This document shows, in pieces, positions 205 to 46,331 of a DNA stretch of 64,000 nt. How positions within the stretch are numbered: the stretch's first letter is position 1; every line of letters starts with the position of its first letter. Under the pieces are notes generated by a model. It was not told the origin of the DNA. It did not search any database and saw only the letters and a list, made by a program, of their open reading frames with translations. The position numbers and the translations under genes were made by a program. Source of the stretch: Chloroflexota bacterium (lineage in GTDB: Bacteria > Chloroflexota > Dehalococcoidia > Lucifugimonadales > Australimonadaceae); the NCBI GenBank assembly GCA_028874795.1, contig JAPPHT010000010.1, positions 31,187 to 95,186 on the forward strand, read 5' to 3'.

Positions 205-1431
205 CTACTCGGTAACGATGCGCTCCGTTACGAGTTCGCCGTTGACGATCTTCCAGATCCCCATGGCGCCGGTAACGTCGCCATTCTCATCGACGTCAAC
301 TGGCCCCGAGGCTCCCTGGTAGTTGATCTCCCTGCCGTCGCGCAGGAGTTCGAGCGCGCGCTGGATCTCCTCCACGCCGGGACCAACCTCCTCACCCGGC
401 GGTGCGGAGACGGCACGTATGGAGTCGCGGATGGCCGTGGGGTCCGATGAGCCTGCCGCCTCAGCGGCGAGGGCGAAGATGACCGCCGCGTCGTAGGACT
501 CGCGGATGAACGGCAGTGACAGGTCGTTGTTGTAGGCGGCCATGTAGTCGCCGTCGAACTGCGCGCGGTCTTCGTTCTCCAGCGCCTCGGGAGCGGTGCC
601 GTACATGCCCTCGAGGTGCTCGGCGCCTACGGCGTCGATGAGGTCGTTGGACTTGCTTCCGTCCACGAAGAGGAAGGTATCGGCGGCGCCGCTCTCGATG
701 GCTTCGCGGATGTAGACGCCCGCGCTGACAGGGAAGCTGATGGCGATCAGCACGTCGGGGTCGTTCGCGGTTGCCTGGGCCAATTCGGAGGCGTAGGAAG
801 GTTGTTCAGCTTCGTGCGGCACCGTTACTACCTGCCCTCCCAGCGCGGTGAAGGACGCCTCGAACTGGTCGGCCAGCCCCTGGCCGTAGGCATCATTGAT
901 GTAGAGCGCGCCTGCGGAGCGGTAACCGAGGTCGTTGTAGGCGAGCTTCGCAAGCACGACACCCTGGAATGCGTCCGACGGTGCTGTGCGGAACACGAAG
1001 TTGTTGTCGTCCAGGACGGTGATGGTGGGAGACGTGGCTGACGGCGACATGAGGGGCACTTCCCCGTCGATCGTGACTGCGCGCGCGACCGCCTGTGTGT
1101 GGCTGCTGCGCAGCGGACCTACGATGGCGGACACGCTGTCCACGTCGACGAGCTTGCGGGCGGCGTCCACGGCAGTGATGTCGGTGGTGCCTGCATCCTC
1201 GGAAACGACCTCGATCTGGCGTCCTCCGAGAACGCCTCCGGCTTCGTTGACGTGGGTGGCGGCAAGCATCACCCCCTGGTCCATCAACGTTCCGAACTCG
1301 GACAGTTCGCCGGTGAACTCCATAAGCGAACCGATCTGTACCGGTTCATCTTCTCCACATGCTGTCAGCGTCATTCCGATGGACATGCCCAGCACAACCA
1401 ACAGTCCGATGCAGACTGACCTTGCGGTCAT
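205..1431 (-). CDS. ABC transporter substrate-binding lipoprotein, branched-chain amino-acid (LivJ/Peripla_BP_6) type
   Basis: Probable extracytoplasmic ligand-binding component of a Liv-type importer. The N-terminus is a lipoprotein signal peptide with lipobox LTAC (Cys25 from the chosen start). The mature part begins with QIGSLMEFTGELSEFG and LAATHVNEAGGVLGG, the standard opening of type I periplasmic binding folds. The ORF-track start is 21 nt further upstream, but AGGAGG lies 6 nt before the ATG at 1431, so MTARSV is preferred. It is convergent with the partial permease. dnaN ends 32 nt upstream on the same strand. The actual ligand (amino acid, amide or urea) cannot be told from sequence. 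Confidence 0.88.
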   Translation of the reverse strand: MTARSVCIGLLVVLGMSIGMTLTACGEDEPVQIGSLMEFTGELSEFGTLMDQGVMLAATHVNEAGGVLGGRQIEVVSEDAGTTDITAVDAARKLVDVDSVSAIVGPLRSSHTQAVARAVTIDGEVPLMSPSATSPTITVLDDNNFVFRTAPSDAFQGVVLAKLAYNDLGYRSAGALYINDAYGQGLADQFEASFTALGGQVVTVPHEAEQPSYASELAQATANDPDVLIAISFPVSAGVYIREAIESGAADTFLFVDGSKSNDLIDAVGAEHLEGMYGTAPEALENEDRAQFDGDYMAAYNNDLSLPFIRESYDAAVIFALAAEAAGSSDPTAIRDSIRAVSAPPGEEVGPGVEEIQRALELLRDGREINYQGASGPVDVDENGDVTGAMGIWKIVNGELVTERIVTE

Positions 1432-1463
1432 CAACCACCTCCTTGGGGGCACGTGTGATCAGT

Positions 1464-2594
1464 TCACCACTGGACGAACATCGGCATGACCACGTGAACG
1501 TATTCGCCGCCGTCGTCCACCGGGCGGATCACGCCCGGACTGGACGAGGTGGTCATCTCCAGGGCGACCTTGTCCTTGCCTATCACGCTGAGCACGTCGC
1601 TGAGGTAGCGGCTGCTGAAGGCGATCTTCCCTTCCGCGCCCTCGACGTCTGCCTCCAGGTTGCCCGTGTTGTCGCCGACTTCCTCAGCCCGCGACGAGAT
1701 CGTGAGCGCGCCCGTGCCTTCTCCCTCCGCGCTCATCTGCAGCCGGATGATGCCTGAGCCGTCCTTCGCGAAGATGGCGGCCGTTCGCGTCGCCCGCTGC
1801 AACTCGCTGAGTCCGATGATGGCGCGCGTGCCGTGCTCCTGCGGGATCAGCTGGGCGTAGTTGGGGAACGTTCCCTGGATGAGCTGCGAGACCACCTCGA
1901 CGTTCTTGAAGCGGAACAGCACCTGGCTGCGCTGCGTCGTGACAACGATGTCGACCGGATCGTCGCTGTCCAGGAGACGCTCGATGTCCGAGAGCGTGCG
2001 GGCCGGGACGATGACCGAGACCCGCTCGCTGGCAGGCTCCAGCAGTTGCGCCTTGCGTACCGCAAGCCGGAAGCCGTCGGCGGCTGCGAACGTAACGTTG
2101 GTGCCGTCGAGCTCGATGTTGACCCCGGTCAGTACGGGCCGGGAGTCCTCCACCGCCGCCGCGAGCACCACTTGGTGGATCGCGTCGCGCAGCGCCCTGC
2201 CCGACATCTTCGTTGAGACGCCCTGGTCTATCGCGGGGATGGGCGGAAACTCCTCGGCAGCTGTGCCGTTGATGTTGGCCTTGGTCCTGTCGCCCTCGAC
2301 GGAGATGCCGCCTCCCTGGGAAGCGGTCTGGACCCTGATGGTCTGCCGTTCGAGCGAGTTGACGAAGTCGGTCAAGAGCCGCGCCGGGATCGTTACGGCT
2401 CCCTCTTCCTGGATGTCAGCGCCTATCCATGTGCTTATCGCAACTTCAAGGTTGGTGGCGGAGAGCTTCAGCCGGCCTTCGTCCGTCGAGAGGAGAACGT
2501 GCTGCGTGATGGGGAGCGTCGTGCGCGTGGCAACGGCGGGCTGCACGATGCTGAGTCCCTGGCTGAGATTCTCCTGTAGGCAGTGCAACTGCAT
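1464..2594 (-). CDS. dnaN: DNA polymerase III subunit beta (sliding clamp)
   Basis: Ring-shaped processivity clamp that tethers the replicative polymerase to DNA. At 376 aa it matches the usual family length. The three repeated clamp domains can be followed: an N-terminal segment with VATRTTLPITQHVLL, a middle domain with VLTGVNIELDG and FAAADGFRLAVRKA, and a C-terminal domain ending in YVHVVMPMFVQW, close to the canonical 'VVMPM' end. GAGG lies about 7 nt before the ATG. dnaA and recF are not next to it, so it is not in the classic oriC cluster. The upstream neighbour on the same strand is a cytochrome c gene. Confidence 0.97.
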   Translation of the reverse strand: MQLHCLQENLSQGLSIVQPAVATRTTLPITQHVLLSTDEGRLKLSATNLEVAISTWIGADIQEEGAVTIPARLLTDFVNSLERQTIRVQTASQGGGISVEGDRTKANINGTAAEEFPPIPAIDQGVSTKMSGRALRDAIHQVVLAAAVEDSRPVLTGVNIELDGTNVTFAAADGFRLAVRKAQLLEPASERVSVIVPARTLSDIERLLDSDDPVDIVVTTQRSQVLFRFKNVEVVSQLIQGTFPNYAQLIPQEHGTRAIIGLSELQRATRTAAIFAKDGSGIIRLQMSAEGEGTGALTISSRAEEVGDNTGNLEADVEGAEGKIAFSSRYLSDVLSVIGKDKVALEMTTSSSPGVIRPVDDGGEYVHVVMPMFVQW

Positions 2595-2754
2595 CTTCAG
2601 ACCTCAATACGTTGTGGTTTTGCGGAAAGGAAACCTCTGCCGCGCTTGGCAGCGAAGTATAGGCGACGCGCCGAGAAGGGGTCAACGAACGGATCTGTAG
2701 GGAAGTGATGATGCCCGCGGCGTTTCCGGTCCGATGAAGGACCGTCCACCGTGG

Positions 2755-3240
2755 CTATTGCTCCGACAGGAAGGTGACGAGCGTGTCCAGCTCCTCGGCT
2801 GAGAGCTGGGTGGCGAAGTCCGGTGGCATCAGGCCGTCGTCGTAGCCCTCGACGACTTCGGCGGACGGGTCCAGGATCGATGTGCGGATGTAGTCGGCGC
2901 CCTTGGAGCCGACCCCGTCAAGTGCAGGGCCATCCGTGGAGTCCCGTGACTGGGAGACCGAGTCCAGCATGTGACAGGTCGCGCAGGCGTAGGTGATGAA
3001 GAGCACTCTCCCGCTGCCTCCCCCGTTCGTAGCGGGCGTGGGCGTTGGCGTTGGCTGCACGGTCGCCCCGGCGGGCGGCTCGCAGTCGACGCCGGCCGCT
3101 CCGACGATCTGCCCTTCCTGGGCGAGATAGCACTCAGGTGTCGCAACGACGCTGGTGCCCCCGCATGCCGTGATGACGGCGAGCATGGCCAGGGATGTGA
3201 TGGCGAGCAGTATGGAGAGTGTGGAACGGCGGAGTCGCAC
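2755..3240 (-). CDS. lipoprotein mono-haem cytochrome c
   Basis: Predicted exported electron carrier anchored by a lipid: the signal peptide ends in lipobox ITAC. A Pro/Thr-rich linker (PTPTPTPATNG) precedes one class I cytochrome c domain. The haem motif is CATCH in 'TYACATCHMLD', and the probable distal Met ligand is in 'GLMPPDFATQLS'. The C-terminal helix LSAEELDTLVTFLSEQ is typical of the family. Start is GTG with AGAGG 4 nt upstream. A CRP/FNR-like palindrome lies about 32-47 nt before the start. The redox partner is unknown; oxidase or dehydrogenase genes are not adjacent. Confidence 0.88.
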   Translation of the reverse strand: MRLRRSTLSILLAITSLAMLAVITACGGTSVVATPECYLAQEGQIVGAAGVDCEPPAGATVQPTPTPTPATNGGGSGRVLFITYACATCHMLDSVSQSRDSTDGPALDGVGSKGADYIRTSILDPSAEVVEGYDDGLMPPDFATQLSAEELDTLVTFLSEQ

Positions 3241-3271
3241 GCGGCCTCTATGTCGGAGGAGCAGGGGCAGT

Positions 3272-3287
3272 TGTGATTTCTATCACG
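3272..3287 (-). promoter_or_regulatory. CRP/FNR-family-like operator upstream of the cytochrome c gene
   Basis: TGTGATTTCTATCACG matches the CRP half-site arrangement TGTGA-N6-TCAC(A) at 9 of 10 positions. It is centred about 40 nt before the GTG start. Family consensus is established knowledge; binding here is inferred. Confidence 0.45.
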
Positions 3288-3431
3288 TTGTATCACCCGC
3301 CGATTCGCCGTGTCAAGGAAGCAACGCCGGATGCGGGCGCCCGTGGCTCGTGCATGGCGGACAGCAAGAGAGGCGGCCGGCGTTCTCCCCAGATAGCCGG
3401 ACCGCCCCTCCCCTTCGGCGGGAACGCTGCC

Positions 3432-26814: not shown

Positions 26815-27078
26815 CGCCCGGCTCACCCCCCATCCCCGCATCAAGTGCGGGGCAGGCTCTAGCCTTCCCCCATCAAGGGGAAGGACCAGACAGGGCGCCC
26901 ACAAGAGACGCCCCTACACCGAGCACCACGTTCCACGCCCCGCCGGGGGCCCTCACCCGCCGCGCAAGCGCGCCTCCCTCTCCCTCAGGAGAGGGGAGCT
27001 GGCCCCCGAGAGGATGTTGCGCGCTGAAGCGCGGGCTCCGCCTCGGGCTCCGCTCAACATGACGCACTCCCCCGACCC
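26815..27078. repeat. composite block of dispersed repeats
   Basis: Several elements follow one another: CCCCGCATCAAGTGCGGGG hairpin; CCTTCCCCCATCAAGGGGAAGG; a GGGCGCCCACAAG...CGCCCCTACACCG unit; CCCTCACCCGCCGCGCAAGCGCG; CTCTCCCTCAGGAGAGGGG; and GCGCGCTGAAGCGCGGGCTCCG. Each has relatives at other sites in this window. No gene is present in this stretch. Confidence 0.65.
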
Positions 27079-27102
27079 TGCCCCGTGTGCCCTGACGTCC
27101 TC

Positions 27103-27130
27103 TTCACATCTGTACGGTATATCGTACAAT
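27103..27130 (+). promoter_or_regulatory. promoter and operator of the HigBA module
   Basis: TTCACA (27103) and TACAAT (27125) are spaced 16 nt. Between and overlapping them lies TGTACGGTATATCGTACA (27111-27128), an almost perfect 18-bp palindrome. The predicted start of transcription falls at or next to the GTG of higB, so the mRNA may be nearly leaderless. HigA is the expected repressor. Confidence 0.6.
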
Positions 27131-27136
27131 GGGGCC

Positions 27137-27433
27137 GTGTACACGATTCTGAGAAGCGCGACGTTCGACCGATGGTTGAGCAGGCTGCGGGACCGCCAAG
27201 CGGTGAACCGCATCGTCGCCAGGCTGCTGGCAGCCGAAGATGGGCATCTCGGAGACGTGGGACCTGTGGGCGGCGGCGTGTCCGAGATGCGGATCCAGTA
27301 CGGACCCGGATACCGGGTCTACTTCATCACGCGGAATACCGATCTGATCGTCCTGCTATGTGGCGGCGACAAGGACAGTCAACGGCGAGACATTGAGCGG
27401 GCCAGGAGAATGGCGACAGAATGGAGGAGCTGA
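27137..27433 (+). CDS. higB: HigB-type (RelE superfamily) addiction-module toxin
   Basis: 98 aa. FDRWLSRLRDRQAVNRIVARLLAAEDGHLGDVGPVGGGVSEMRIQYGPGYRVYFITRNTDLIVLLCGGDKDSQRRDIERA matches the 'putative addiction module killer protein' branch of RelE/HigB ribosome-dependent mRNA interferases. The ORF track runs 229 codons further upstream through repeat sequence and is rejected. GTG at 27137 gives the family's normal N-terminus VYTILRSATFDRWL. Its TGA overlaps the ATG of higA (TGATG). Confidence 0.85.
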   Translation: MYTILRSATFDRWLSRLRDRQAVNRIVARLLAAEDGHLGDVGPVGGGVSEMRIQYGPGYRVYFITRNTDLIVLLCGGDKDSQRRDIERARRMATEWRS

Positions 27434-27777
27434 TGTCTGAGGAGTATCGAAGGTTCGACGCAGCGGACTACGTAAAGACCGAAGAAGACATCCAAGGGCT
27501 TCTCAGCGCAGCTGTAGATGAGGACACGGGTGACGGAGCCGTGATCCGCGCCGCCTTGAAGTACATCGCCCAGAAACACAACATGAGCGCCCTTGCCCGC
27601 GCCACCGGGCTGAACCGCGGCAACCTCTACGAGGCACTGTCTGACGGCGGCAACCCTACCCTGGCAACGCTGCTGAAGGTCACAGCCGCCCTGGGTCTGA
27701 GACTGCGCCTCGAGCCTGTGGAGGACGGCGTAGCAGGTGCGCAACCGGCCAGGGCCGGAAGCACCCAGCAGGGATAG
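27433..27777 (+). CDS. higA: HigA-type addiction-module antidote protein
   Basis: 114 aa. DAADYVKTEEDIQGLLSAAVDEDTGDGAVIRAALKYIAQKHNMSALARATGLNRGNLYEALSDGGNPTLATLLKVTAALGLRLRLEP is the Xre-like HTH antidote paired with HigB of this branch. The HTH is MSALARATGLNRGNLYEAL. The second ATG (27433) was chosen because it overlaps the toxin stop and has GGAGG 5 nt upstream. It neutralises HigB and probably represses the upstream palindrome. The C-terminal AQPARAGSTQQG tail is extra. Confidence 0.87.
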   Translation: MSEEYRRFDAADYVKTEEDIQGLLSAAVDEDTGDGAVIRAALKYIAQKHNMSALARATGLNRGNLYEALSDGGNPTLATLLKVTAALGLRLRLEPVEDGVAGAQPARAGSTQQG

Positions 27778-27819
27778 CCGTCGACTGCTCTATCGCCTGG
27801 CTGAGTGAGCGGCGCGCGC

Positions 27820-27990
27820 ACCGAGAGGGCGCCCACAAGGGTGGTTCGACAGGCTCACCATGAGCGGGGGCGGGTGGACCACCCTCACCCGCCGCGCGAG
27901 CGCGTCTCCCTCTCCCAGAGGGCGAGGGGAGCTGGCCAGCCTGAGGGGATGCGCGCTAAAGCGCGGGCTGCGCTCAAAGTGACAAGGCCC
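27820..27990. repeat. dispersed repeat block
   Basis: Contains GAGGGCGCCCACAAGGGTG, ACCCTCACCCGCCGCGCGAGCGCG, CTCTCCCAGAGGGCGAGGGG and GCGCGCTAAAGCGCGGGCTGCGCTCAAAGTGACA, an arrangement like the block at 26815. It lies between higA and the first alpha/beta hydrolase gene. Confidence 0.6.
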
Positions 27991-28030
27991 TGCGTATAAT
28001 CCGGCGCAGCCGGTCCGGAGGAGGCGTGTG

Positions 28031-28966
28031 ATGCCGCTCGACCCTGAAGCGAAAGCGTCGTTGGAGAAACGCATCGAGATGGGTGTGCTCGAGCCGCACG
28101 AGACGAGCCCGCAGGAGGCACGAGCGTTGCAGGCGGCCCGGCCGAACCTGCCCGGGCCGGAGGTGGCGTCGGTCAGCGATCACCTGGCGCCCGGGCCGCA
28201 CGGCGACGTGCCCGTGCGCGTATACGTCCCAGTGACGGACGATGAAGGCCCCCTGCCCGTTTCCATGTGGTTCCACGGCGGCGGCTGGGTCATCGGGAGC
28301 GTCGCGACGAACGATGCAACGTGCCGGGCGCTGGCGAACGCGTCCGGCGCCATCGTCGTTTCGGTGGACTACCGGCTCGCGCCGGAGCACAAGTTCCCGG
28401 TGCCGTTCGACGACTCCTACGCGGCGACGGTGTGGGCGGCGGAGAACGCGGCGTCGCTGGGCGGCGACCCCTCCCGGTTGGCGGTCGCGGGAGCAAGCGC
28501 CGGCGGGAACCTCTCAGCAACGATAGCGCTGCGGGCGCGGGACGAGGGAGGGCCGCGACTCGTGCAGCAGTCGCTCATCTACCCGGTGACCGACCACGAC
28601 TTCACCCGTCCGTCATACGTCGAGAACGGCGAAGGCTACGGACTCTCTTACGCCTCGATGGTCTGGTTCTGGGACTGCTACCTCTCCAGCGGGGCGGAGG
28701 CGTCGAACCCCTACGTTTCGCCGATGCTCGCGGAGAACCTGTCCGGCCTCCCTCCAGCGTTCGTGCTGACGTGCGAGTACGACCCCCTGCGCGATGAGGG
28801 TGAGGCATACGCGGCCCGGCTGCAGGAGGCGGGCGTGCCGACCAGGCTGAGCCGCTACGACGGGATGATCCACGCGCTCTTCAACGCGGGCATACCCTTC
28901 TCCCGGACGTGGAGCGCGATCGACGAGACCGCGGGCGAGCTGCGGAAGGCGTTCGGCACGGCGTAA
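28031..28966 (+). CDS. alpha/beta hydrolase, hormone-sensitive-lipase (HSL) type esterase
   Basis: 311 aa. The oxyanion motif MWFHGGGWVIGS (HGGGW), nucleophile elbow GASAGG, catalytic Asp region CEYDPLRDEGEAYAARL and catalytic His in YDGMIHALFN form the complete HSL-family triad. It likely hydrolyses short- to medium-chain esters. GGAGG lies 6 nt before the ATG at 28031 (a GTG three bases earlier is the track start). A close paralogue follows 124 nt downstream. The same repeated promoter-proximal sequence (CGTATA.TCCGGCGCAGCCGG) precedes both genes. Confidence 0.92.
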   Translation: MPLDPEAKASLEKRIEMGVLEPHETSPQEARALQAARPNLPGPEVASVSDHLAPGPHGDVPVRVYVPVTDDEGPLPVSMWFHGGGWVIGSVATNDATCRALANASGAIVVSVDYRLAPEHKFPVPFDDSYAATVWAAENAASLGGDPSRLAVAGASAGGNLSATIALRARDEGGPRLVQQSLIYPVTDHDFTRPSYVENGEGYGLSYASMVWFWDCYLSSGAEASNPYVSPMLAENLSGLPPAFVLTCEYDPLRDEGEAYAARLQEAGVPTRLSRYDGMIHALFNAGIPFSRTWSAIDETAGELRKAFGTA

Positions 28967-28969
28967 CGG

Positions 28970-29050
28970 GGCCCTTCGGCAGGCTCCGGGCAGGCTCTCG
29001 ACTTCGCCCTCGGCTGCCGCCGACGGGCTCCGCTCGGAATGACAATCCGT
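28970..29050. repeat. dispersed repeat ('...GGCTCCGCTCGGAATGACAA' family)
   Basis: CTTCGGCAGGCTCC, TCTCGACTTCGCCC and GGGCTCCGCTCGGAATGACAATC resemble elements at 32905, 42301, 46400 and 61468. The repeat separates the two esterase genes. Confidence 0.6.
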
Positions 29051-29090
29051 CGCGTATACTCCGGCGCAGCCGGCCTGGAGGAGATGTCTC

Positions 29091-30053
29091 GTGCCCCTCG
29101 ACCCTGAAGTGAGAGCCTCGTTGGAGCAGCAGGCCGCCATGGGCCTGCCCGCCCAGCACGAGGTGAGCCCCGAGGAGGCGCGCGCGATGTCGGAGGGCCA
29201 GCCGCGCATCCCCGGGCCGGAGGTTGCGTCGGTGAGCGACCTCGCCGCGCCGGGGCCTCACGGCGACGTGCCCGTGCGGGTGTACGTTCCGGTGATTCAC
29301 CCTCACCCTCTCCCAGGGGGAGAGGGGAATGAAGAGTCCCTGCCCGTGTGCGTGTGGTTCCATGGGGGCGGATGGGTAGTTGGCAGCATCGCGACGAACG
29401 ACCCGACCTGCCGGGCGCTCGCGAACGCATCAGGGGCCATCATCGTGTCGGTGGACTACCGGCTGGCGCCGGAGCACAGGTTCCCGATCCCCCTAGACGA
29501 CTGCTACGCCGCGATGGAATGGGCGGCGGCGAATGCGGCGTCGTTCGGCGGCGACCCGTCGCGGCTGGCGGTCGCCGGGTCCAGCGCCGGTGGCAACCTC
29601 GCCACCGCGGTGGCGCTGCGGGCACGGGACGAGGGCGGGCCGCGGCTCGCGCACCAGTCGCTCATCTGCCCGGTCGTTGACAAGGACTTCCGGCGCGTGT
29701 CGTACGTGGAGAACGGCGAGGGCTACGGCCTGTCCTACGACACGATGGTCTACTTCTGGCTGTGCTACGTGTCCGGCGAAGCCGACGCGTTCAACCCTTA
29801 CGCCGTACCGATGGCGGCGGCGGACCTGTCCGGCGTGGCGCCGGCGTTCGTGCTGACGTGCGAGTACGACCCGCTGCGCGACGAGGGCGAGGCGTACGCC
29901 GAGCGGCTGCGCGAGGCCGGCGTGCCGGTGAAGCTGTCCCGATACGATGGGCAGGTCCACGCATTGTTCAACGCCGGGGTGCCGTTCACGCGGACGTGGG
30001 ACGCCATCAACGAGGCGGCGGGAGAGCTGCGGAAGGCGTTCGGCACTGCGTGA
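29091..30053 (+). CDS. alpha/beta hydrolase, HSL-type esterase (paralogue with repeat-derived insertion)
   Basis: 320 aa, very similar to the preceding esterase. HGGGW, the GSSAGG elbow, CEYDPLRDEGEAYAERL and YDGQVHALFN are all present. Start is GTG with GGAGG 9 nt upstream. Relative to its paralogue it has nine extra residues, IHPHPLPGGEGNEES replacing TDDEGP, just before the HGGGW strand. These codons are read from a dispersed GC-rich repeat. The insertion is in frame and lies in a surface region before the oxyanion loop, so activity may be kept. Its stop overlaps the GTG of the MFS gene. Confidence 0.92.
   Translation: MPLDPEVRASLEQQAAMGLPAQHEVSPEEARAMSEGQPRIPGPEVASVSDLAAPGPHGDVPVRVYVPVIHPHPLPGGEGNEESLPVCVWFHGGGWVVGSIATNDPTCRALANASGAIIVSVDYRLAPEHRFPIPLDDCYAAMEWAAANAASFGGDPSRLAVAGSSAGGNLATAVALRARDEGGPRLAHQSLICPVVDKDFRRVSYVENGEGYGLSYDTMVYFWLCYVSGEADAFNPYAVPMAAADLSGVAPAFVLTCEYDPLRDEGEAYAERLREAGVPVKLSRYDGQVHALFNAGVPFTRTWDAINEAAGELRKAFGTA
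29293..29332. repeat. dispersed repeat inside the esterase coding sequence
   Basis: CACCCTCACCCTCTCCCAGG and its continuation GGGAGAGGGGAA match the intergenic family seen at 26066 and 48200. The paralogous gene lacks it, so it is an acquired insertion. Confidence 0.75.
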
Positions 30054-31429
30054 GTGAGCACCGCCATCCCAACCTTCCCCCATCAAGGGGGAAGGGGCAG
30101 GCAAGAGCGCCAGGGATACCGCGTTTCTGGCCGTCGCACCGCGTCTTCTACGGATGGGCTGTGGTCGGCGCGGCGTTCGTGGCGACGTTCGCGGAGGTGC
30201 CGGGGTTCGGGCCGGTGCTCACGGTCTTCGTCAAGCCGATCCAGGATGAGCTGGGCTGGTCGTACAGGGTAATCGCAACGGGGTTCCTCATCGGGAGCGC
30301 GTCGGGGGCGATCGCATCGAGCGTCACGGGGTGGCTGGTCGACAAGTACGGGCCGCGGGTGGTGGTGGCGCTGGGAGGCGTGGGGCTCGCGGCTGCGCTC
30401 ATAGGGCTGTCGACGATACAGGAGCCGTGGCACTTCTGGACTTTCTTCGGGTTGGCGCGCGGGTCGGTGATCGCGGGGGTGGAGATCGGGTCCTCAGTGG
30501 CGATAGCGAAATGGTTCGTGCGGCAGCGCGGGCGCACACTGGCGCTGAAGTCGATGGGCCAGCGGTCGGGACAGGTCGTGCTCCCCATCGTCAGCTTTCT
30601 CATCATGGACGCGTCCGACTGGCGGACGGCGTACGTGGCGCTGTCCGGCTTCGCGTGCCTGGCGATCATCGGGCCCGCGCTGGTGCTGATGCGCAGCCAG
30701 CCGGAAGACCACGGGCTGTTGCCGGACGGCACGACCGATCTGCGCAGCGTTCGGGGCGAACCGGGGGGTGAAGGGGCGAGTTCCCTGCCTCCGCGGGAGC
30801 GACTAACAGTGGTGGAGGATTCGTGGACGCTGCGGGAGGCACGGGGGACGCGGGCCTTCTGGCTGATCACGGTGTTCCTCATATGCACGCCGTTCGTTCA
30901 GGGGGCGACGAACCTGCACATGGCGCCCATCTTCCACGACCGCGGGCTGAGCGATGGCCAGGCGGTGGCGATCGTGTCCATCTTCGGGATGTCGTCCGTG
31001 TCATCGATCATGCCGATGGGGTTCATGATGGAGCGCGTACACGTGAGGCTGGGAGCGATGATGCAGGCGGTGCTGGTGCTCACGTCCATGCTGCTTCTCC
31101 TGGTCCCGGCGGGCGGCTTCCCGCTAGCGGTGCTCTGGGCGGTCATCTTCGGCGTCGCGGCGGGGATGCGGAACGTTATCGAGGTGCTGCTGCTGGCGAA
31201 CTACTACGGTCGGGCGTCGCTGGGAGCGATCAAGGGGTTCACGGCGCCGTTCCGCATGATCAGCCCGTTCGGGCCATTGCTGGCGGCGCACATCCGGGAC
31301 GAGACGGACAGCTACACGGGGGCGTTACTGCTCTTTGCGGGCGTCGCGGTGTTGATGCTGGCGCTCATGGCGTTCGCGACGCAGCCGCGGAAGGCGCCGG
31401 CGTTCATTTCCGGTTTACGCTCTCCCTAG
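30050..31429 (+). CDS. MFS transporter (OFA/monocarboxylate-like)
   Basis: 459 aa with 12 membrane helices. The first helix FYGWAVVGAAFVATFAEVPGFGPVLTVFVKP and the block GWLVDKYGPRVVVALGGVGLAAALIGLS are typical of OFA/MCT-type carriers of organic acids. A central cytoplasmic loop (LPDGTTDLRSVRGEPGG...) separates the halves. The only start upstream of helix 1 is a GTG overlapping the esterase stop (GTGA). It makes the first 20 residues (VSEHRHPNLPPSRGKGQARA) repeat-derived. Coupling to the esterases suggests uptake or release of an ester's acid product. Confidence 0.85.
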   Translation: MSEHRHPNLPPSRGKGQARAPGIPRFWPSHRVFYGWAVVGAAFVATFAEVPGFGPVLTVFVKPIQDELGWSYRVIATGFLIGSASGAIASSVTGWLVDKYGPRVVVALGGVGLAAALIGLSTIQEPWHFWTFFGLARGSVIAGVEIGSSVAIAKWFVRQRGRTLALKSMGQRSGQVVLPIVSFLIMDASDWRTAYVALSGFACLAIIGPALVLMRSQPEDHGLLPDGTTDLRSVRGEPGGEGASSLPPRERLTVVEDSWTLREARGTRAFWLITVFLICTPFVQGATNLHMAPIFHDRGLSDGQAVAIVSIFGMSSVSSIMPMGFMMERVHVRLGAMMQAVLVLTSMLLLLVPAGGFPLAVLWAVIFGVAAGMRNVIEVLLLANYYGRASLGAIKGFTAPFRMISPFGPLLAAHIRDETDSYTGALLLFAGVAVLMLALMAFATQPRKAPAFISGLRSP

Positions 31430-31738
31430 AGAGCCGCTCGCCCGCCCCGAGGGCCCTCACCCGCCGCCTGTGGCGGCACCCTCTCCTTCAGGAGAGGAGT
31501 GCGTTAGGCCCCACACTTCCCCACGCCCCCACAGTACCCTCTCCCTAACCCTCTCCCCTTGTAGGGCGAGGGGACCATTCCGTCTCCCAGCGCGAGGGCG
31601 CAGTAGTATAGTTGCCGGCGAGCGGCGGAGAACGGTATGGACCGAAGGCCCTCAGCGGCAACCCTCCGGGCGGCGACCTCTCCCACGAGAAGAGGTGACC
31701 CAGGAGTTGTCGATTTTGCGTAAAGGAAGGTCAGGGTC
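31430..31738. repeat. 309-bp gap filled with dispersed repeats
   Basis: GGGCCCTCACCCGCCGCCTG, CTCTCCTTCAGGAGAGGAG and CTCTCCCTAACCCTCTCCCC are members of the same GC-rich families. No gene is seen. The last about 60 bp should hold the promoter of the amidohydrolase; GGAAGG there is its ribosome site. Confidence 0.6.
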
Positions 31739-32839
31739 ATGGCGACGTTTGGTGTGATCGACGCCGACACGCACGTGGACGAGAACGAGGCCACGTGGCA
31801 GAGCCTGGAGGAGGCCGGCTCCAAGTACGTGCCTGTCTCCATCTCGCCGGACGCACGGGTGGCGTCCGCAGTGGCGGACCGTCCGGAAGCGCCGGGCGTA
31901 CGCATCGCAGGGGCGCTCGGCAACCGCTGGTGGCTGGTCGAGAACCGCCTGCAGCCGCGCTTCATCCGCGACGAGGAACACCACCCGCTGCGCGAGCACC
32001 GGGAGCTGGACGACGCCGCAGGCGTCGCGGGGCGCCTGAGAGATATGGACAAGATGGGCGTCGATGCCCAGGTCATCTTCCCGACGTTCTTCATCCGCTA
32101 CGGCGCGCAGGACCCGGACGCCGAGGCAGACCTGACGGGCGCGTACAACCGCTGGCTCGCAGACCGGTGCGCGATGAGCAACGGACGCCTGCGCTGGGCG
32201 GCTGTGCTGCCGCTGCTCGACCCCGACAGGGCGGTAGCTGAGCTGCGCTGGGCGAAGGAGAACGGCGCGTGCGCCATCTTCAAGCGCGGATTCGACCTCG
32301 ACAAGCCGGTCAGCGACAAGCACTTCTTCCCGGTGTACGAGGAGGCGGACTCGCTGAACATGCCGCTCTGCATCCACACCGGCCATCCCCTGCCCGGCCG
32401 CGAGTGGGACAGGGGCTTCCCGGTGATGGCTGCGTTCCTCGCGGTGGTCTCCAGCAGGCTCCCGAGCAAGTTCCCGAACCTCAAGTTCGGGTTCATAGAG
32501 GCGGGCGCCGCATGGATCTCCTACGTGCTCTCCAACCTGGGGATGGTGCAGCGGTCGCTGGCGCTGCACGACCGCTCGGCGGCGTTCGACCTGCAGCGAG
32601 ACCTCTTCAAGGAGGACCGGCTGTACGTGTCGATAGACCCGATGGACCAGATCGAGCACCTGCTGGACTTCGGCACTGAGGACAACCTCATCATCGGCAC
32701 GGACTACTGCCACTCAGACCCGTCGGCGAACCTCGCGGCGCTCGACGAGGTGAAGAAGTGGGCGAGCGAGGGGCGGATCAGCGATGCGGTCGCGCGGAAG
32801 ATACTGGAGACCAACGCCAAGGAGTTCTACAACCTGTAA
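31739..32839 (+). CDS. amidohydrolase-2 (ACMSD-like) metal-dependent hydrolase
   Basis: 366 aa TIM-barrel protein. The opening GVIDADTHVDENEATW gives the D-x-H metal motif. CIHTGHPLPGREWD supplies the barrel histidine, and IIGTDYCHSDPSANLAALDEV the late Asp. This matches the ACMSD / 2-amino-3-carboxymuconate decarboxylase-like family, which contains decarboxylases and hydrolases of aromatic intermediates. A paralogue lies at 46460. It is a single gene with its own repeat-filled upstream gap. The substrate is unknown. Confidence 0.85.
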   Translation: MATFGVIDADTHVDENEATWQSLEEAGSKYVPVSISPDARVASAVADRPEAPGVRIAGALGNRWWLVENRLQPRFIRDEEHHPLREHRELDDAAGVAGRLRDMDKMGVDAQVIFPTFFIRYGAQDPDAEADLTGAYNRWLADRCAMSNGRLRWAAVLPLLDPDRAVAELRWAKENGACAIFKRGFDLDKPVSDKHFFPVYEEADSLNMPLCIHTGHPLPGREWDRGFPVMAAFLAVVSSRLPSKFPNLKFGFIEAGAAWISYVLSNLGMVQRSLALHDRSAAFDLQRDLFKEDRLYVSIDPMDQIEHLLDFGTEDNLIIGTDYCHSDPSANLAALDEVKKWASEGRISDAVARKILETNAKEFYNL

Positions 32840-32867
32840 CGGGGGAGGCCTTGGTCACCACTCCCCG

Positions 32868-33118
32868 TTTCCGGGGGCCCTCACCCGCCGCGGGTGAGAG
32901 ATTTCTCGACTCCGCTCGAAATGACAAGTCTCCCCCAGCCCAACCTCCCGGAGGGCCCTCACCCGCCGCGCTGAAGCGCGTTGCCCTATCCCTCAGGAGA
33001 GGGGACCATACAGGGCACCCACGAGGGGTGCCCCTACACCGGATCACCCCGGACATCCCCGCCCCGCCGCGTGACCTGGCGGTCACCCTGGATCCCCGCG
33101 TTCGCGGGGATGACGAAG
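32868..33118. repeat. dispersed repeat block
   Basis: CGGGGGCCCTCACCCGCCGC, TTTCTCGACTCCGCTCGAAATGACAAG, GCTGAAGCGCG, CCCTCAGGAGAGGGG, GGGCACCCACGAGGGGTGCC and the GGATCCCCGCGTTCGCGGGGATGACGAA hairpin. Each unit recurs elsewhere in the window. No coding signal. Confidence 0.65.
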
Positions 33119-44637: not shown

Positions 44638-45099
44638 ATGTCAGAGGAGAACAAGGCGTTCGTCCGCCGCTTGTACGAAGAGGTCTACAACAACGGGCGC
44701 ATCGACCTGATCGGCGACCTGTACGCGCCGGACGTCGAGCTCCACATCGCGGGCATCCTCGAGGACCCGTTCGGGCCGGAGCCGATCAAACAACTGGTGA
44801 CGATGACGCGCACCGCCTTCCCCTCGATACACGTCACGGTGGACGACCTGATCGCGGCGGAGGACCGCGTGGCCGCGTGCGTCTCCTTCACCGGCGGGTT
44901 CCAGGGCGTGGGCATGGGCACGTCTCCTCGGGCCAACCTGTCGTGGTGGCGGCGCATCGACGTCTACCGCATCCAGCTTGGGCGCGTCGTGGAACAGTGG
45001 GGCGACCGCGACGACTTCACGATGCTGCAGCGGCTGGGCGTTGCCGTCCCGGCATTCAACGACCCGAAGCCAGCGCCGCGGGAGTTCGGCAGGCTGTAG
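44638..45099 (+). CDS. SnoaL-like polyketide cyclase / ester cyclase family protein
   Basis: 153 aa cone-fold protein. NKAFVRRLYEEVYNNGRIDLIGDLYAPDVELH at the N-terminus, DLIAAEDRVAACVSFTGGFQG in the middle and WWRRIDVYRIQLGRVVEQWGDRDDFTMLQRLG at the end are typical SnoaL/DUF1486 features. Substrate unknown. The last 13 codons and stop are part of a 44-bp sequence that is repeated exactly beyond the HicBA genes, so this 3' end was the site of a duplication. Confidence 0.85.
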   Translation: MSEENKAFVRRLYEEVYNNGRIDLIGDLYAPDVELHIAGILEDPFGPEPIKQLVTMTRTAFPSIHVTVDDLIAAEDRVAACVSFTGGFQGVGMGTSPRANLSWWRRIDVYRIQLGRVVEQWGDRDDFTMLQRLGVAVPAFNDPKPAPREFGRL

Positions 45100-45100
45100 C
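45057..45100 (+). repeat. 44-bp direct repeat, left copy (3' end of the SnoaL-like gene)
   Basis: Begins CAACGACCCGAAGCCAGC and ends TTCGGCAGGCTGTAGC. It is identical over 44 bp to 45613-45656. The identity stops sharply on both sides. Confidence 0.95.
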
Positions 45101-45174
45101 GCGGCGGTGTGGCATCAACCCCCTTGCTACAATCTGTGCAGGATTAGGGAAACCCACCGCCTGGGAGGATGAGC

Positions 45175-45393
45175 ATGGAGCGCACCTATGAAGTGGTCCT
45201 GGAGCCCGCTGAGGAAGGCGGCTTCGCCGTCTACGTTCCAGGCATGAGTGGCTGCGTCTCCCAGGGCGAAACGGAGGAGGAGGCGCTGGAGAATATCAGA
45301 GACGCTATCGAATGCTGGCTTGATTCATGGGAGCAGATCGAGCGGGAACGAGCGGGCCAAGGTCGGCGCCGCACGGTCGTTGTTGACCGGTGA
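45175..45393 (+). CDS. hicB: HicB-type antitoxin
   Basis: 72 aa. MERTYEVVLEPAEEGGFAVYVPGMSGCVSQGETEEEALENIRDAIECWLDS is the partial RNase H-fold HicB domain. The short C-terminal tail (GQGRRRTVVVDR) lacks a full HTH, as in the compact HicB class. GGGAGG lies 6 nt before the ATG at 45175, and directly abuts the earlier ATG at 45169, so the second is chosen. A TACAAT -10-like box lies about 40 nt upstream. It overlaps hicA by 4 nt. Confidence 0.88.
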   Translation: MERTYEVVLEPAEEGGFAVYVPGMSGCVSQGETEEEALENIRDAIECWLDSWEQIERERAGQGRRRTVVVDR

Positions 45394-45608
45394 ACAGAGT
45401 CCCAGACCTGTCCCATCAACGCGTGGTGCGTGCTCTGAGCAAAGCAGGATTCGTCATCAAGCGCCAAGGCAAACACATTTCGATGTACAAGGAGGAACGA
45501 AACGTTCTCGCAGTGATACCCAGGCAGAACCCGGTCAAACGGGCTACGCTGGTACAACTACTGAAAGGGATCGGCATATCGCCGGAAGAGTTTGCGGACC
45601 TAATCTGA
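45390..45608 (+). CDS. hicA: HicA-type mRNA interferase toxin
   Basis: 72 aa with the double-stranded RNA-binding-like fold. LSHQRVVRALSKAGFVIKRQGKHISMYKEERNVLAVIPRQNPVKRATLVQLLKGIGISPEEFADLI matches HicA, with the catalytic His29 in GKHISMY. It cleaves mRNA and is neutralised by HicB. The GTG start overlaps the hicB stop (GTGA). The pair lies entirely between the two 44-bp direct repeats. Confidence 0.9.
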   Translation: MNRVPDLSHQRVVRALSKAGFVIKRQGKHISMYKEERNVLAVIPRQNPVKRATLVQLLKGIGISPEEFADLI

Positions 45609-45612
45609 TGGG

Positions 45613-45656
45613 CAACGACCCGAAGCCAGCGCCGCGGGAGTTCGGCAGGCTGTAGC
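45613..45656 (+). repeat. 44-bp direct repeat, right copy
   Basis: Exact copy of 45057-45100. It encodes the same C-terminal peptide NDPKPAPREFGRL and stop, but without an upstream gene in frame. The distance between copies is 556 bp. Confidence 0.95.
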
Positions 45657-45695: not shown

Positions 45696-46331
45696 ATGGC
45701 TCCTGCGTCCCGCCAGCCGGCTATCCCATCCCTGATCGTGCCTCTACTCCTGTTGCTCACCCTGGCGGCGTGCCAGGTTTCCCCTACCCCGACTCCCCTT
45801 CCGACGGTGGCGCTCGAGCCCACCCCGACCCCGACTTCCCTGCCGACGTCAACCCCCGAACCTCCCGCTCCGACCGCAACGCCCACCCCGGTACCGACGC
45901 CAACGCCGACGGCCAGTCCCGACCCGACACCGACCCTCACTCCTGCGCCGACGCGGCGTCCGACCGCTACGCCCACGCCTACCCCCGAACCCGAACCGAC
46001 GCCAACGCCGGACCTCGTCGCGCAGTACGTCGAGGCCATCTGCGCGGGCAAGCCGAGCTTCAACGTCGCGACGGCCTCGTTCTCGGAACTCGAGGAGAAG
46101 TTCCGGGCGTACGAGCAGTACCTCATCGCCATGCACGTTCCCGACGACGTGCGCGACCACTACGACGCCCAGTTGCACGCGACGCGGGTGGTGGTCGGCG
46201 AGCTGGCTCGCGCGGCGGCCAGCCGGCCGAACGGCAGGCCGGCAGGCAACCTGAACGACTACGTCGGCTTCCTGTGGCTGCACCCTGAGCCGTACGAGCG
46301 CCTCACCGGCATCGACGTCCCGTGCTTCTAG
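45696..46331 (+). CDS. lipoprotein with Pro/Thr-rich stalk
   Basis: 211 aa. Signal peptide with lipobox LAAC. Residues about 30-105 are a low-complexity TPTPTP stalk, typical of surface lipoproteins in Chloroflexota. The C-terminal domain (about 106-211, LVAQYVEAICAGKPSFNVATASFSELEEKFRAYEQYLIAMHVPDDVRDHYDAQLHATRVV) is helical and unknown. Two cysteines (AICAG, DVPCF) might pair. The stalk probably holds the domain away from the membrane. Confidence 0.75.
   Translation: MAPASRQPAIPSLIVPLLLLLTLAACQVSPTPTPLPTVALEPTPTPTSLPTSTPEPPAPTATPTPVPTPTPTASPDPTPTLTPAPTRRPTATPTPTPEPEPTPTPDLVAQYVEAICAGKPSFNVATASFSELEEKFRAYEQYLIAMHVPDDVRDHYDAQLHATRVVVGELARAAASRPNGRPAGNLNDYVGFLWLHPEPYERLTGIDVPCF

Follow-up and report, generated by a model that had tools for sequence, protein, structure and literature searches.

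The mobility and clustering of solitary toxin-antitoxin operons are well documented, and the locus described here raises the question of how such an operon moves when no mobile-element gene accompanies it. In the window (the whole stretch of 64,000 nucleotides analysed, from Chloroflexota genome G000), a hicBA pair lies between two copies of the 3′ end of the gene upstream. The locus is laid out as follows.

44638..45099, + strand: SnoaL-like target gene, intact (PF07366, E 7e-27), whose 3′ end is repeat copy 1
45057..45100, + strand: repeat copy 1, identical to copy 2 at 44/44 positions
45101..45168, + strand: module leader with a promoter-like TACAAT (45128-45133), a putative promoter judged by its sequence, and a ribosome site
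45169..45393, + strand: hicB antitoxin, 74 aa (PF15919 HicB_lk_antitox, E 4e-10)
45390..45608, + strand: hicA toxin, 72 aa, GTG start (PF07927 HicA_toxin, E 3e-9)
45613..45656, + strand: repeat copy 2, with no complete gene attached and native downstream DNA after it
45696..46331, + strand: Pro/Thr-rich lipoprotein-like ORF, the native right neighbour by ORF call and by alignment with relatives G004 and G005

The hicB and hicA reading frames overlap by 4 bp and constitute a predicted operon, whose second product scores above the curated cut-off of PF07927 and is a predicted toxin. The 68-bp leader, hicB and hicA are the sole content between the repeat copies, and copy 2 starts 4 bp past the hicA stop. 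The leader's GCTACAATC is also present 5′ of a second hicBA pair in G000. The insert holds no recognised mobile-element gene, and the ORFs and Pfam profiles revealed no recombinase gene between or beside the copies.

The repeat unit consists of the final 13 codons and stop of the SnoaL-like gene, flanked by a single C on either side, and its two copies are spaced 556 bp start-to-start. All of this agrees with a preliminary description of the locus, which had noted an exact 44-bp duplication of the upstream gene's 3′ end, 556 bp between equivalent points, a toxin-antitoxin pair in between, a preserved C-terminus of the upstream gene and no integrase. Among exact direct repeats at 100-3000 bp spacing, it is the longest in the window, and the longest such repeat in Markov-3 simulations (n = 40) did not exceed 20 bp. 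A search allowing 3 mismatches returned the two copies only, with 0 expected, and the SnoaL 3′ end occurs at two sites in the G000 genome, both at this locus. Viral contigs gave no exact match to 33 bp of the repeat and contained two HicB relatives, both distant.

Other repeats in the window are of different kinds. Palindromic repeats such as CCCTCTCCCTCAGGAGAGGG and GATTCCCGC-TTCGCGGGAATGACG are dispersed over 26939-33005 and 56917/61572. Neighbouring direct repeats of ~270-300 bp that are 76-81% identical (27964-28541 and 29024-29628) are probably a tandem gene duplication.

Orthologues of the SnoaL-like gene are found in all six genomes of the genus. An empty site with a single repeat copy, which the preliminary description proposed to look for in relatives, is present in G004 and G005, and the window DNA to the right of copy 2 matches the DNA after the single copy in these genomes. 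The hicBA pair at the SnoaL 3′ end is an insertion, because in both genomes the single copy is joined directly to the lipoprotein gene. The same place is occupied in G003 (MPMJ01000002.1, SAR202 cluster bacterium bin16), an independent assembly, and the structure is therefore not an assembly artefact. There (L020:2732-3011), hicA is deleted and hicB is almost whole, a solitary antitoxin left behind; hicB starts 9 bp past the SnoaL stop with the leader mostly absent, and the second copy, though still recognisable, is decayed and contains a frame change. On the right, the junction of hicA stop, 4 bp and CAACGACC falls at the identical base in G000 and G003, so a single common event or a common cassette sets the minimum age of the structure. 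The preliminary description had held that the same pair with diverged copies in all relatives would speak against insertion; diverged copies are found in G003, and the insertion reading survives thanks to the clean empty site in G004 and G005. An unrelated 2.4-kb insert with two metabolic genes, for a phosphotriesterase-like and a luciferase-like monooxygenase protein, occupies the same spacer in G002 (L019, about 904-3347) with the second repeat copy absent, which shows that the SnoaL/lipoprotein spacer tolerates insertions. The remaining genome, G001, has a different neighbourhood at the SnoaL gene.

A tree of the flanking genes places G003 together with the empty-site genomes G004 and G005, with G000 outside (support 83-93). 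The occupied state is thus not monophyletic, and occupied and empty genomes interleave on the genus tree. Identity between G000 and G003 is 88% for hicB and 89% for SnoaL; hicB divergence is close to genome divergence, as would be expected under vertical descent with loss in G004 and G005. The two G000 copies are identical, and both contain G000-specific bases. A functionless copy should diverge, as it has in G003, so we infer that in G000 the module was recently re-inserted or one repeat copy converted the other. Taken together, tree and divergence do not establish a recent insertion in the window; they suggest that the insertion happened earlier in the genus and was followed in G000 by recent homogenisation or re-insertion. 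Clean losses and homogenised copies would both be expected if the repeats recombine together.

The architecture recurs with other targets and other toxin-antitoxin families. We assembled 112 related hicBA loci from many phyla and counted direct repeats, 26 bp or longer, that span the module; these flank 20/112 modules versus 84/3713 (2.3%) control placements at these loci. In an initial test without gaps, the figures were 13/112 versus 10/607 control placements, the control matches being mostly internal repeats of repeat proteins. When one random placement per locus was drawn in a within-locus permutation, repeats flanked 10/43 modules, compared with 0.4 on average for the placements (p ~5e-5); under tight geometry the figures were 6 and 0. 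Repeats also flank 5/25 vapBC loci (3/354 controls) and 2/23 parDE loci (0/368 controls). The GNAT acetyltransferase family, a control outside toxin-antitoxin systems, gave 1/27 with a weak 31-bp match, a sample too small to separate the groups alone (Fisher p 0.08 for hicBA and 0.25 for PIN plus ParE). Some hicBA hits (L094, L141, L068 and L102) were rejected as target duplications and are not to be counted as such, their repeats being dispersed palindromic or REP-like sequences and not gene ends. Within G000, no flanking repeat surrounds the second hicBA (L023:4053-4490, G000:C87; 73% DNA identity), which lies between ruvB-like and methylmalonyl-CoA-mutase-like genes, or the five vapC and two parE loci, save one dispersed repeat in L293.

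Repeat length ranges from 31 to 207 bp, and targets vary freely, 5′ gene ends being used as well as 3′ ends. The second copy begins 4-52 bp past the toxin stop in many unrelated loci, and the module ends show no conserved motif. Cassettes with the same boundaries, which the preliminary description proposed to look for, exist elsewhere as an architecture; the repeat sequence itself differs from cassette to cassette, and most loci share none. The clearest cases, in which the repeat duplicates one end of the adjacent gene and that gene stays whole, are these:

L078: tRNA-Ser end, no leader at the junction
L069: tRNA-Met 3′ end
L109: dprA, 13 codons and stop, as in the window
L057: acyl-CoA dehydrogenase gene, 85 bp with one mismatch
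L257: queA, 207 bp
L259: carA
L202: lysS
L216: leuD 5′ end, the copy beginning at the ATG; a parDE case
L248: phosphoribosyltransferase gene 5′ end
L238 and L242: helicase-like gene 5′ end

Relatives of the L216 genome have leuC and leuD adjacent with no insert, an empty junction. At L099:3142-4583, three 3′-end copies of a methyltransferase-like gene (R1/R3 94.5% identical, R2 80-82%) separate a DUF4258/DUF2283 pair from a hicBA pair, and the locus is a small toxin-antitoxin island of two modules with gene-end spacers. An exception to the diversity of repeats is a tRNA-Met 3′ end that flanks related hicBA modules in two genera (L069 in G537, L167 in G598 and L168 in G600:C113). The tRNA-Met is missing or decayed in G600, where the setting differs; the idea that this hicBA moved with its att core was downgraded, as the left flank could be a decayed tRNA.

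Two further arrangements were observed. Two gammaproteobacterial assemblies (L143:3806-4487 and L145:2039-2716) have a common hicBA flanked by a 52-56-bp repeat; the upstream stretch resembles a decayed tRNA read backwards, and ARAGORN found no tRNA. At L048:91-2057 (G275), consecutive DUF2283, HicB-like and hicBA genes have as flanking sequence a 302-bp copy of a HigA-like antitoxin gene.

How did the module come to lie between two gene ends? As a whole account, it is modestly probable that hicBA inserted with target duplication, most likely through recombination at a gene end that it carried. A type II module (promoter and hicBA, ~510 bp) would have inserted at the 3′ end of the SnoaL-like gene and duplicated its last 43-44 bp; the repeat copy would restore what insertion would otherwise remove, leaving the gene intact. 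The module may travel with a piece of the neighbour gene, one possible form being an excision circle of hicBA plus gene end. Recombination at the matching gene end of a new genome would then generate the order end-hicBA-end, recombination between the two copies would permit clean removal or re-insertion, and toxin addiction may help the module to persist. No circle, transfer event or activity was observed. The interleaved occupied and empty states, the similar divergence of hicB and SnoaL and the identical G000 copies fit pop-out and pop-in of the module or conversion between copies. The left module boundary is not fixed, since the junctions in G003 and L078 have no leader.

The differences between repeat copies bear on where the second copy came from. 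Ten protein-coding cases contain 42 synonymous and 27 non-synonymous differences (n = 69), against 28 synonymous expected (p 8e-4) under a simple model in which the complete gene accepts silent changes only and the fragment accepts all; four loci (L238, L242, L257 and G003) contribute most of the excess. This suggests, with moderate confidence, that some copies once belonged to a functional gene of a different genome and that in these cases the module arrived with the gene end attached, the reading that we prefer.

An unlikely but serious alternative is that both copies are the recipient's own. A break or stalled fork would capture the module, copying would resume 44 bp back, and illegitimate repair or template switching would thereby duplicate the target locally. 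The freshest copies are 98-100% identical (window, L057 and L078), against differences of 10-20% among relatives' orthologues, and the perfect identity in the window can also come from a fresh local target duplication. The free variation of repeat length and target at both gene ends and the motif-less module ends also favour such repair. The synonymous excess between copies argues against it, and a junction common to G000 and G003 with empty genomes interleaved would need extra losses and conversion.

Distinctly less probable is a non-autonomous integrative element whose repeat would serve as att core: a tyrosine recombinase with its gene at another locus would insert a circle at gene 3′ ends, as happens with tRNA-targeted islands. 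tRNA 3′ ends are the classic integrase target, and several repeats derive from them (tRNA-Ser in L078, tRNA-Met in L069), including the tRNA-Met end common to hicBA flanks in G537, G598 and the tRNA-less setting of G600. G000 also encodes four tyrosine recombinases, all elsewhere in the genome, a normal complement for a genus with 2-9 per genome. Against this explanation, no integrase adjoins the module in the window, the repeats of most loci lack a common sequence, and 5′ ends are used too (leuD, phosphoribosyltransferase and helicase-like genes). The preliminary description had compared the locus to integration at an att site; since each repeat belongs to its own neighbour gene, a dedicated att site is not indicated. 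Its suggestion of an enzyme acting in trans is compatible with the recombinase genes present, none of which is tied to this site. Its minimal mobile cassette is borne out as regards insertion and recurring architecture, and not as regards att-type boundaries.

It is highly improbable that a larger island, bounded by attL and attR, once lay here and was reduced to its toxin-antitoxin genes. Islands often carry such genes, and deletion does occur, as in the loss of hicA from G003. The proximity of toxin stop and second copy in many unrelated loci would, however, require independent shrinkage to the same unit; no other mobile-element gene lies between the window repeats, and the six genus genomes hold no larger element between the same two copies, the G002 insert being unrelated. 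Chance, assembly error or simple tandem duplication, a concern with a G000 assembly of 90 contigs, is a negligible explanation, given the short simulated repeats, the diverged copies in independently assembled G003 and the need for hicBA to double and then lose one copy exactly.

Recombination at a carried gene end, the preferred reading, might extend to solitary type II toxin-antitoxin operons as a class, a generalisation that we put forward tentatively, as somewhat short of probable. These operons would be mobile units that pick up an adjacent gene end and re-insert at the matching end elsewhere, which would leave a 40-200-bp duplication, allow clean excision and build islands module by module. 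The recurrent footprint of duplicated neighbour gene end, clean empty site and two-gene cargo makes the question of their movement testable by counting, strain comparison and excision assay. Its presence at other toxin-antitoxin units in many bacteria suggests how minimal selfish units spread, and it would give two kinds of addiction module, toxin-antitoxin and restriction-modification (RM) systems, a common mode of spread.

Integrase-dependent elements at tRNA or gene 3′ ends duplicate the gene end and leave the target functional. The hicBA loci resemble them in both respects and differ in lacking an integrase in the module and, for most loci, a conserved core between elements, in using 5′ ends too, and in their two-gene cargo. 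Integron cassettes and pdif (Xer-site) modules are, like these loci, minimal toxin-antitoxin cassettes that are sometimes arrayed; they use one type of recombination site, whereas the hicBA borders are pieces of different target genes with no common attC or dif by sequence. Toxin-antitoxin islands consist of adjacent unrelated modules, as in L099, which adds gene-end repeats as spacers. High horizontal mobility of such islands is described in passages of Makarova et al. 2009 (PMC2701414) and Gerdes 2024 (PMC10865869), the former suggesting preferred regions of insertion or transfer of multi-TA cassettes. Direct repeats of neighbour gene ends around toxin-antitoxin modules are not described in those passages, a silence of open-access literature that is weak evidence.

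The closest parallel is with RM systems. Passages of three reviews (PMC3874152, PMC3031569 and PMC1643837, citing Nobusato et al. 2000 Gene 259:99 and Furuta et al. 2010 NAR 38:2428) describe RM insertion unlinked to mobile elements, with long and variable target duplications, on the order of 100 bp (PMC3874152); there, target-duplicating mobility is stated for RM and not for toxin-antitoxin systems. Both kinds of locus involve a small addictive unit, no mobile-element gene, an empty site in relatives and long variable repeats. The window has the target repeats, the single-copy relatives and the lack of a mobile gene, with a cargo other than an RM system. The differences lie in that cargo, which is hicBA, vapBC or parDE, and in the clearest repeats, which are gene ends that keep the neighbour whole. 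By this analogy, we read toxin-antitoxin modules as probably doing the same as RM systems; the locus would be a case of insertion with long target duplication, known for RM, with a toxin-antitoxin cargo.
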